DNA from: Planctomycetaceae bacterium
GTDB taxonomy: Bacteria; Planctomycetota; Planctomycetia; Pirellulales; Pirellulaceae
DNA length: 64,000 bases
Direction of reading: 5' to 3'
Assembly: GCA_005778405.1 (NCBI GenBank)
Contig: SXOA01000023.1
Coordinates: 1 to 64,000, forward strand
Each line of letters begins with the position of its first letter. The stretch's first letter is position 1. Under the pieces are notes generated by a model. The model was not told the origin of the DNA and made no database searches. It worked only from the letters and a program-made list of their open reading frames with translations. The position numbers and the translations under genes are program-made. Positions 10,215 through 23,218 of this stretch are shown here, in pieces.

Positions 10215-11609
10215 ATGAGTGACGCCTGGAATCTCCGCCGCACTTGCGCCCAATTCCGCCAGCTCGAAACGAGCCAGGCGAGCCGGCGCGGGTTCTTGCA
10301 CGCTGGCGTCATTGGAACGGCCGGGCTGTCGCTGGCGAATCTGCTGCGGAGCGAAGCAGCGGCGGTCCCGATAACGACTCAGGACAAAGCGAAGAACAAT
10401 GTCATCATTCTGTGGATGCGGGGGGGCCCCAGCCACATCGACATGTGGGATACCAAGCCCAATGCCCCAGCGGAGTTTCGCGGCGAATTTGGCACGATGA
10501 GCACGAATGTGGCGGGCATTCAGCTCACCGATATGCTGCCGCACTGCGCCAAGGTCATGGACAAGTGGTCCATCATCCGCAGCCTCAACCACGGCGACGC
10601 CGGACACAGCACGGGAGACCAGCTTTGCTTCACCGGCTACGGGCCGGGCATCGCCCCGGACGAAAACGCCCATCCCAGTTGCGGCAGCATCGCCGCCGAG
10701 CAACTCGGCAAGCTCAACCCGCGGCTGCCTCCGTATGTGATGATTCCCCGCATGGTCCCCGGCACCGGCTCCGCATATCTGGGTGTCTCCTGCAAACCGT
10801 TTGAAACTCAAGCCGACCCCGCCACGGTCGGACCCTTCAAGGTCCAGAATTTCGAGATGGCCGCTGGGCTTTCCGTCAACCGCCTCGGCGACCGGCAGAA
10901 CCTGCTCTCCGGGCTCGACAAGCTTCGCCGCGAAGCCGATGCCAGCGGCAAGATGGCTGGACTCGACCGTTTTGGCCAAAAGGCCTACGACATGCTCTGC
11001 TCCCCGGAAGCTCAGAAGGCGTTCGACCTCGACGCCGAACCGCAGAAAGTTCGCGACCGCTACGGCTTCATGCCGGCATGGGATCCCGGCGCAAGTAACC
11101 GCTGCGGCTCCCCCGCCTGGAGCCAGCGAATGCTGCTCGCCCGCCGCCTGGTCGAAGCGGGTGTCCGCATGGTGACGGTGGATCTCCGCTGGTGGGATAC
11201 GCACGTCAAAGGGTTTGAGTCCCTCAGGTTCGGATTTCTGCCCCGGTTCGACCTGGCCTATACCGCTCTGATTGAAGACCTCCATGAGCGCGGCCTCATG
11301 GAAAAGACACTGGTCGTCGCCTGGGGAGAATTCGGCCGCACTCCACGAGTGAACAACGACGCCGGTCGTGACCATTACCCCAACGTGTTCAGCGCCGCCA
11401 TTGCCGGCGGCAAGGTAAAAGGAGGCCGCGTCATTGGGGCTTCGGACAGCCACGGCGCATTCCCCAAGGATAACCCCAAGTCGCCGCTCGACGTGCTGGC
11501 CACCATCTACGACCATCTCGGCATCGACACCAAAAAGCAGTATCTTAATGATGCTGGGCGTCCCATTTCCGTCCTTTCTGGCGGCGAGCCCATTAAAGAG
11601 TTGTTCTAA
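10215..11609 (+). CDS. DUF1501 family protein (orphan copy 1)
   Basis: DUF1501 proteins are exported, sulfatase/alkaline-phosphatase-fold-like proteins that are very abundant in Planctomycetes; their reaction is unknown. This copy has a Tat-like signal (ASRRGFLHAGVIGTAGLSLANLL). Typical family segments follow: WMRGGPSHIDMWDTKP, SIIRSLNHGDAGHSTG, VVAWGEFGRTPRVN, GRDHYPNVF and GASDSHGAF. The start at MSDAW puts the Arg pair at a usual distance; an ATG 17 codons upstream at 10164 is also possible. Unlike two other copies here, it has no adjacent DUF1553 partner. Confidence 0.9.
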   Translation: MSDAWNLRRTCAQFRQLETSQASRRGFLHAGVIGTAGLSLANLLRSEAAAVPITTQDKAKNNVIILWMRGGPSHIDMWDTKPNAPAEFRGEFGTMSTNVAGIQLTDMLPHCAKVMDKWSIIRSLNHGDAGHSTGDQLCFTGYGPGIAPDENAHPSCGSIAAEQLGKLNPRLPPYVMIPRMVPGTGSAYLGVSCKPFETQADPATVGPFKVQNFEMAAGLSVNRLGDRQNLLSGLDKLRREADASGKMAGLDRFGQKAYDMLCSPEAQKAFDLDAEPQKVRDRYGFMPAWDPGASNRCGSPAWSQRMLLARRLVEAGVRMVTVDLRWWDTHVKGFESLRFGFLPRFDLAYTALIEDLHERGLMEKTLVVAWGEFGRTPRVNNDAGRDHYPNVFSAAIAGGKVKGGRVIGASDSHGAFPKDNPKSPLDVLATIYDHLGIDTKKQYLNDAGRPISVLSGGEPIKELF

Positions 11610-20399: not shown

Positions 20400-22602
20400 A
20401 GATCAGCTCGTTGGTATTGAGGAGCACATGGCAGAGCGAGGCCAGGGCGAATCGCTCGGCGTCCTTTTTCGTCGCGGGATTTGACGCAAAGAGATTCGTC
20501 TGTTCAACCACAAATGCAATCATTTCAAATCTCTCGTCGCGGCTTGGTTCACGTCCTAAGATCAAATGCCACGGAGACAGGTTCCGATCTCGCAGCATTT
20601 GATCGGCCAGCTTCTCGCTCGCCCGATGCGTGAATTCATTATTGAGCAGCGCCAACGCCTGTGGAGCAACGACATTGACATCCCGCTGACCGCAGGGCTG
20701 CGTGGTGTCGCAGAAGTCGAACGTGGTGAGCAGCGGCAGCAACAGAGACCGCTTGCTGAAGATGTAGATGCTGCGGCGGGCCTGCTGATCAGCGGGTGAC
20801 GACTGCCAAGCCTTGTCCTTGGTGGACAGTCCCTCGAGTGCGTCCGAATTCAGATGGGGGAAAAAGCCGGGGCCGCCCGCTTGCCTGCTGAGTTGGCCGC
20901 TCGCGGACAGAATTGTGTCGCGGAGAGCCTCGGCGTCGAGGCGGCGGCGATTGGCTTTCCACCACAGCGTGTTGGCGACGTCCCTTTCGCGGAACTCCAT
21001 GTCCCGCGGATGCACTGACGCCTGCCGAAAAGTCGCGGAGCAGACCAGCTTGCGGTGCAGCCGCTTCATCTCCCAACCGCCGTCTTTGAGCTCGCTCGCC
21101 AGGTAATCGAGCAATTCCGGATGCGTCGGCAACTCTCCTTTGAAGCCGAAATTGTTGGGAGAGCGGACCAGTGCCTGACCAAAATGATGCTGCCAGAGCC
21201 GATTGACGGCGACGCGTGCCGTCAGCGGATGTTGCGGGCTGGTAAGCCAGTTCCCAATCGCCAGCCGCCGCTGCGAAGTCTTGTTGCCGGGAACGGAAGC
21301 AATCGGCGAGACAAGAGAGGATACAAACGACAGCGTCGCCGGTTTGACTTCTTCCAAGGGACGGTGCGGATCACCCTTTTTGAGCAGCATCAGAGGCGGG
21401 ATGTCAGCTCGGTCAGTCCAGCCAAGCACGTCAAAGCCAAGTTCTTCTTTGCTGGGCCCTCCCATCAATTCGCGGCCTCGAGCCTCAATAAAGCCCGCCC
21501 AAAAGGCAGAAGCGAGACGGTAATAATCGGTCTGTGGAATCGGGTCAAACTTGTGATCGTGGCAACGGGCACATTTGACGGTCAAACCTAGGAACGCCGA
21601 GCCCGTCACATGGACCAGGTCCTCCAGCCGCTCGTACTTATACTCCAAGGCATCGTTCGGCTCATCGTCCCAGGTGCCGATGCGGAGGAGCCCCGTGGCG
21701 ATGACTGTCTCCTCGGTCCGATCGGCGAGCTCGTCTCCGGCGAGTTGCTCGACGACGAATCGGTCGTACGGTTTGTCTCGGTTGATGGCCCCGATGACAT
21801 AATCCCGGTACTTCCACGCGCCGGGCTTGGGGGCATCTCGCTCGTAACCATTGGTATCCGCATAACGAACCAGATCCAACCAATACCGGCCCCACCGCTC
21901 GCCGAAATGAGGTGACGCGAGTAGGCGGTCCACTTGTCGCTCATAGGCATCGGGAAATTTATCGCTCGCGAATTCCTGGACTTCTTCAAAGGTTGGCGGA
22001 AGCCCGATGAGATCGTAGTAAGCTCGGCGAAGCAGCGTGCCGTGCGATGCCGGAGGCGCTGACTCGAGGTTCTTCTGACGGAGACTTTCCTGGATAAACG
22101 AGTCAACTTGATTTTCGCTTGCCGGATTCGCTCCTTGCACTTGAGCTGGCGGAACGTTTGGTCTCTGGATCGGCTGCAGCGACCACCAATCGAGTCCCGC
22201 CCTGGTCGATGTGGTGACTTCAAACGGATTCAGAACAATTCCTTCCGGCCATTTTGCCCCTGACAGAATCCAGGCTCGAATCTGCTCGACCTCTTCCTTG
22301 GGGAGCGCCTGCGACTTGCCATTTTCCTCCGGCGGCATCTCTCCCGCCGCGACTCTCTTCAGGAGGACACTTTCTTCCGGCCTCGCCGCATCAATCACCA
22401 CTCCACCTTCTCCCCCTTTCAGCAGCCCTTCACGACTAAGCAAAACCAATTCCCCCTTTGCCTCGCTCGCATTGTGACAGCCGAGACAACGTTTGGTCAG
22501 AATCGGTCCAATGGTTTTGGTGAAATCGGGCTCCGCGGCAATGGCCGGGGCGCATGTGGCAATGAGGGCCAACGATCCGAGAAGAATGGAGAACTGCGTC
22601 AT
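20389..22602 (-). CDS. PSCyt1 / DUF1549 / DUF1553 domain protein
   Basis: The product is about 737 residues and exported. The chosen ATG gives a clean signal peptide (MTQFSILLGSLALIATCAPAIAA); 34 upstream codons are non-homologous. The planctomycete cytochrome C domain (PSCyt1) carries CLGCH near residue 40. DUF1549 follows with RRAYYDLIGLPPTFEEV, SPHFGERWGRYWLDLVRYADTNGYE and VKCARCHDHKFDPI (a second CxxCH). DUF1553 fills the C-terminal third (NWLTSPQHPLTARVAVNRLWQHHFG, LLALLNNEF). It is the first gene of the operon with DUF1501 and the monohaem gene. The function is unknown. Confidence 0.93.
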   Translation of the reverse strand: MTQFSILLGSLALIATCAPAIAAEPDFTKTIGPILTKRCLGCHNASEAKGELVLLSREGLLKGGEGGVVIDAARPEESVLLKRVAAGEMPPEENGKSQALPKEEVEQIRAWILSGAKWPEGIVLNPFEVTTSTRAGLDWWSLQPIQRPNVPPAQVQGANPASENQVDSFIQESLRQKNLESAPPASHGTLLRRAYYDLIGLPPTFEEVQEFASDKFPDAYERQVDRLLASPHFGERWGRYWLDLVRYADTNGYERDAPKPGAWKYRDYVIGAINRDKPYDRFVVEQLAGDELADRTEETVIATGLLRIGTWDDEPNDALEYKYERLEDLVHVTGSAFLGLTVKCARCHDHKFDPIPQTDYYRLASAFWAGFIEARGRELMGGPSKEELGFDVLGWTDRADIPPLMLLKKGDPHRPLEEVKPATLSFVSSLVSPIASVPGNKTSQRRLAIGNWLTSPQHPLTARVAVNRLWQHHFGQALVRSPNNFGFKGELPTHPELLDYLASELKDGGWEMKRLHRKLVCSATFRQASVHPRDMEFRERDVANTLWWKANRRRLDAEALRDTILSASGQLSRQAGGPGFFPHLNSDALEGLSTKDKAWQSSPADQQARRSIYIFSKRSLLLPLLTTFDFCDTTQPCGQRDVNVVAPQALALLNNEFTHRASEKLADQMLRDRNLSPWHLILGREPSRDERFEMIAFVVEQTNLFASNPATKKDAERFALASLCHVLLNTNELIYVD

Positions 22603-22685
22603 AGGAGAGATCGTAGCATACGAGAGCATCTTTCTCGTTACGCTAGCCGCGCCGGAAAGCGGTGTCAAATCCGGGGAAGTCGTGA

Positions 22686-22931
22686 ATGGTCTCCAAGTCG
22701 CCACTTCGCTTCACTATCCGCGATATGCTGCTCGTCACGGCGCTTGTGGCTGTGTGCTTCGGCTGGCTCATCGACCGGCAATCGCTCCTACTCGAAAATT
22801 AGGCGGAGTCTCGTCGAGCCGAGCAGTGGCGGTCCGAGGTCTTGGACCAGGGTCGAGAACTCCGTCGTCTACGACATCAACTGTTCCTCCCCTTCGGTGA
22901 GCCTTTACCACCGCCTCCTGCCATCAATTGA
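22686..22931 (+). pseudogene. Small membrane protein ORF interrupted by an in-frame TAG
   Basis: The frame starts with an ATG preceded by GGGGAAG and encodes LRFTIRDMLLVTALVAVCFGWLIDRQSLLLEN, which resembles small planctomycete proteins: a short basic head, one transmembrane helix, then a charged tail. A TAG at 22800-22802 stops it at 38 residues. Beyond the TAG the same frame continues for 42 codons as an amphipathic charged helix (AESRRAEQWRSEVL, ELRRLRHQLF) and a proline-rich end before TGA at 22929. This fits one original gene of about 81 codons. It is too short in either half to appear in the ORF track. Confidence 0.6.
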
Positions 22932-23050: not shown

Positions 23051-23218
23051 ATCGCCAAAAGTAAAAGCCCGACCACGTTCGCCAAACGCCAGAGAGAACA
23101 GAACAAGAAGCGGAAAGCGAACGACAAGCTCAACCGCCGCATCGACCGCAAAGCCCAGGCCGAGCGTGAGCCCCCTCCAACGCAACAACCAGAAACAGAG
23201 GACGTGCAAGAAGGATAG
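23051..23218 (+). CDS. Small Lys/Arg-rich protein with apparent ATC start
   Basis: The frame encodes AKSKSPTTFAKRQREQNKKRKANDKLNRRIDRKAQ followed by an acidic, Pro-rich tail. Short proteins of this type, with a TFAKRQRE-like core, are familiar from several bacterial groups. No ATG, GTG or TTG occurs at the natural beginning. Instead an ATC sits exactly where the initiator is expected, 7 bases after GGAG. The ORF-track start at 22928 would add 41 residues unlike the family. It may be a functional gene with a rare start, a gene that lost its initiator, or a base-call error. Confidence 0.45.
   Translation: MAKSKSPTTFAKRQREQNKKRKANDKLNRRIDRKAQAEREPPPTQQPETEDVQEG

Follow-up and report, generated by a model that had tools for sequence, protein, structure and literature searches.

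The reading frame at 22686-22931 on the plus strand is most likely a copy of a redundant family of small membrane proteins that has been cut short by a nonsense mutation, either as a pseudogene of recent origin or as a shortened allele. It lies in a window of 64,000 nucleotides, the whole stretch of DNA that was analyzed, from the draft genome of a Planctomycetaceae bacterium. Read in frame +1, the locus translates as MVSKSPLRFTIRDMLLVTALVAVCFGWLIDRQSLLLEN, a TAG stop, AESRRAEQWRSEVLDQGRELRRLRHQLFLPFGEPLPPPPAIN and a final TGA, that is, 38 codons and 42 codons on either side of the TAG. A preliminary description of this DNA had reported a single in-frame TAG, and this holds, with the TAG at 22800-22802 and the TGA at the end of the frame. 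The parts of the locus are as follows.

22686..22802, plus strand: truncated open frame with a basic head, an IRD motif, one membrane helix and DR-xx-L-xx-EN, 38 aa (translation, family profile, codon usage)
22800..22802, plus strand: in-frame TAG, in a family column that is mostly Q, E or D in relatives (translation, register table)
22803..22931, plus strand: in-frame continuation of 42 codons and TGA, with a charged helix-like stretch and a Pro-rich end, a probable remnant tail
22672..22678, plus strand: possible ribosome-binding stretch GGGGAAG 5' of the ATG (sequence reading only)

On one side of the locus a PSCyt-type cytochrome gene runs divergently on the minus strand, with its probable ATG at 22602, and on the other side is a small plus-strand gene; the region 22686-22931 is largely covered by two other plus-strand ORFs as well. 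The PSCyt-like matches listed in the genome are without internal stops.

The 38 N-terminal codons belong to a true member of a multi-copy planctomycete family and, judged by sequence comparison, are not a chance open frame. Members of this unnamed family (KFSIRDLL..GWW) begin with a short basic stretch that contains an IRD motif, followed by one hydrophobic helix that closes with GWW-like and DR residues and then by a variable charged helix. The overall pattern is KFSIRDLLLVTVIVAL.xGWWVDR followed by the charged helix, as expected for small single-pass membrane proteins. A profile built from ten members recovers the window copy with E = 8.8e-11; at E <= 1e-6 it has matches in 19 of 241 genomes. 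In a single-sequence search of its own genome matches reach E = 4.5e-7, with 7 besides the window copy at E < 0.01, and about eight family copies are present in this genome. These paralogues share the anatomy of the window copy (for example MKFSIRDLLLVTVIVAMAAGWWVDRSRLWEELRKEIVRHRLEALEWESHRLPNASASATKPPEP at C85), and more family members are present in other genomes of the same taxonomic family. The membrane-protein family is not covered by any Pfam or NCBIfam model at that model's cut-off. The profile and the register table place [KR]F[ST]IRD[LM]L, one hydrophobic helix and (D)(R/H) in the window copy, the 38 residues of which carry the basic head, IRD, the membrane helix and DR..L..EN; the membrane topology of its product is predicted. 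Codon usage in this part resembles that of window genes (+0.25 bits per codon). The window copy differs from its relatives in having TAG where they read on, and the charged helical tail, mostly of at least 28 residues in the family, is found in the window copy in frame beyond the TAG alone.

The TAG falls nine residues past the membrane segment, immediately after the motif DR..L..EN and inside the charged helix, in a gap-free alignment. With the register set from the RFTIRD motif, 25 relatives could be placed, and 24 of these extend at least 15 residues beyond the TAG column (including L026, which was registered on a different motif). Most continue for about 28 residues or more, and some end in a Pro-rich stretch. 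The sole exception is L008 (G000:C129:16180-16251), a degenerate-looking copy in the same genome with TTG where other copies have ATG, which stops three residues beyond the TAG column, just after the membrane segment. Since the relatives read on at this column and the one exception is degenerate, a premature stop is the natural reading, and L008 indicates that decay of family copies does occur in this genome. L018 and L028 were considered as relatives with an internal TAG and rejected, as the alignment had overrun their natural ends. A common end at this position, which the preliminary description had named as evidence against a split gene, is thus not what the paralogues and relatives display.

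The 42 codons beyond the TAG are a probable former coding tail and would once have been translated. Their amino acid composition is closer to that of family tails than 95.5% of random inter-stop segments, and the first 27 residues are closer than 98.9% of such segments, with the cut picked post hoc. Reading through the TAG raises the profile score from 42.3 to 45.0 bits, a gain that random tails equal in 16% of cases and shuffled tails in 26%, and after this control the profile extension was dropped as proof of tail homology. Codon usage after the TAG is poor and off-frame-like; as proof of a non-coding tail it was also dropped, because the tails of the intact paralogues L002-L004 score about equally poorly. 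The preliminary description had also named a lack of conservation after the TAG as evidence against a split gene, and on this point the answer is weak, since tails in the family diverge too quickly: the composition fits family tails, but the gain in profile score is not significant. The proposal of one gene split by a stop stands insofar as relatives run in register through the TAG column, and is less secure where it relies on the tail.

Several of these observations would also suit a 38-residue peptide that is a complete and functional product, followed by a frame that is open by chance. An open run of 42 codons is not unusual (32% of the window's inter-stop gaps reach that length), codon usage beyond the TAG looks off-frame, the tail adds no significant profile score, and L008 also ends just past its membrane segment. 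Such a short product is nonetheless quite improbable given the longer tails of 24 of the 25 in-register relatives and a tail composition that beats 95-99% of random segments in likeness to family tails. The same weaknesses in the tail, namely profile homology short of significance and poor codon usage (though equally poor in intact paralogues), weigh against truncation by nonsense mutation, as does the capacity that a 38-residue membrane peptide could have to function in its own right; the truncated product is more readily taken as non-functional. A further point against truncation is that the searches turned up no orthologue that could represent its intact ancestor. Sequence searches for an orthologue of the window copy in 60 relatives, 119 genomes of the family and the GTDB contig collection returned paralogue-level matches or none, and no family member was found on the flanks examined of 29 homologues of the divergent PSCyt-like gene.

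A stop of this kind may also arise from an assembly or sequencing error, in which case the true genome would have a sense codon and an intact family member of ~81 residues. The genome is a draft of 203 contigs (91.65% complete), one substitution would be enough, and the rest of the frame resembles an intact member. Lone substitution errors are uncommon in assembled contigs, however, and the window is without wider signs of error, with long intact genes around the locus, making an error unlikely and a real mutation the better account of the change. Under truncation by nonsense mutation, the charged helix of one copy would have acquired a TAG through a single-codon change. Normal termination by RF1 would then yield a membrane peptide of 38 residues that lacks this helix, and redundancy of the family would allow such a shortened copy to be tolerated.

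The preliminary description had offered nonsense mutation, sequencing error, and programmed readthrough or recoding as explanations; the first two fit the locus, but the third found no support. Recoding would be expected to leave TAG depleted as an ordinary stop or to coincide with the loss of RF1, and neither is seen. The genome encodes prfA (RF1; at G000:C32), although the match scores 423.3 bits and barely exceeds the curated cut-off of 423.25, and TAG is the commonest stop among 44 long window ORFs (TAG 18, TGA 15, TAA 11). A suppressor or pyrrolysine tRNA, which the preliminary description had suggested looking for, did not emerge: ARAGORN assigned a CUA anticodon to none of 48 tRNA-model loci, in a genome whose completeness of 91.65% makes a missing gene possible. 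Given this result, PylRS and pyl biosynthesis genes are also unlikely. RNA downstream of the TAG folds no better than shuffled sequences (z = +0.36). The window copy thus resembles UAG recoding systems that use pyrrolysine or a suppressor tRNA in its in-frame TAG only, and differs from them in having RF1, abundant TAG as a normal stop and no CUA tRNA found.

One tRNA-Ser-like locus has the anticodon TTA (G000:C45:55-143; L095/L122) and might in principle decode UAA, possibly UAG too. It is positioned at a contig edge and has two acceptor-stem mismatches. The end of another contig, C138 (G000:C138:14049-14090; L145), carries the 5' half of a normal tRNA-Ser(TGA), with a 31-nt core identical to that of the TTA locus, and in every relative with a complete gene the homologous tRNA is Ser(TGA) by ARAGORN. 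The edge position, the acceptor mismatches and the shared core make a chimeric contig end the simplest account, and probably the correct one; otherwise the locus would be a candidate ochre suppressor. Elsewhere in the genome, a 134-kb contig carries an array of 17 clustered tRNA genes (G000:C143:3506-5298) and one more at 10454-10526 (L091). Many genes of this array have low model scores, and it is possibly a mobile element or phage-like array.

For bacteria there are reports of in-frame stops that are conserved under purifying selection (Belinky et al., 2021, PMC7918605). The window copy is similar to these bacterial in-frame stops, whether pseudogenes or leaky, in having a single stop inside a recognizable coding frame, and differs in that stop conservation and dN/dS form no part of the evidence for it. 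That precedent, together with a frame that stays open, a family-like tail and the TTA locus, is what speaks for programmed or suppressor-dependent readthrough giving a minor full-length form. With RF1 present, TAG the commonest stop, no CUA tRNA found, unremarkable downstream structure, TAG conservation without support and a TTA locus that is likely a chimeric contig end, such readthrough is very improbable indeed. Equally slim is the chance that partial reading of the TAG, through the tRNA-Ser-like locus and its UUA anticodon for instance, yields a 38-residue membrane anchor along with a minor form bearing the charged helix.

Downstream of the truncated copy lies a second small gene with an unusual start.

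23051-23218, plus strand: small basic protein gene, IAKSKSPTTFAKRQREQNKKRKANDKLNRRIDRKAQ..., 120 bases downstream of the TAG-bearing frame

Of 397 genomes of the order, 81 contain members of its family, AKNQNTFAKRQREMEKK(R/Y)KAEEK..., which also occurs in Acidobacteriota. Homologues were collected with a pattern blind to the start codon (loci L101-L121 and L177-L255). The start position is the codon just before a conserved A-K; among 80 distinct homologues it is ATG in 39, ATC in 30, GTG in 7 and TTG in 4, and ATT or ATA in none. An internal isoleucine codon is an unlikely reading of the ATC because ATT would then be expected, and it is never seen. The 30 ATC cases include close relatives of one another and are not 30 independent cases; those bearing a family label all fall within the window's own family, Pirellulaceae. 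A Shine-Dalgarno-like stretch occurs within 20 bases in 28 of the 30, half of them (15/30) have no in-frame upstream ATG, GTG or TTG, and the open frame of L114 and L115 begins just nine codons 5' of the ATC. As read from these comparisons, AUC is apparently conserved as a start codon of the 23051-23218 family in Pirellulaceae.

Non-AUG starts restricted by IF3 are known from infC and pcnB (AUU in E. coli), and infC of Myxococcus has an AUC start. In the set examined here (L256-L283), infC, encoding IF3, apparently starts with ATC in most genomes with a readable start region, at a position where ATC-GA is conserved; the window's own genome is among them (G000:C163:5436-5924; L277). The occurrence of this infC start in the same clade suggests that IF3-dependent control of the start codon may be common to infC and the small protein in Pirellulaceae. 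Searches of the literature for bacterial AUC starts yielded nothing on the 23051-23218 family.

Taken alone, the TAG-bearing locus is an unremarkable member of a multi-copy small-gene family, one that has been broken or shortened. It illustrates that a lone in-frame stop in a gene of a draft genome does not amount to recoding unless conservation of the stop is shown. The neighboring 23051-23218 family, with its apparent conserved ATC start, is of more interest than the TAG locus and merits a study of its own.
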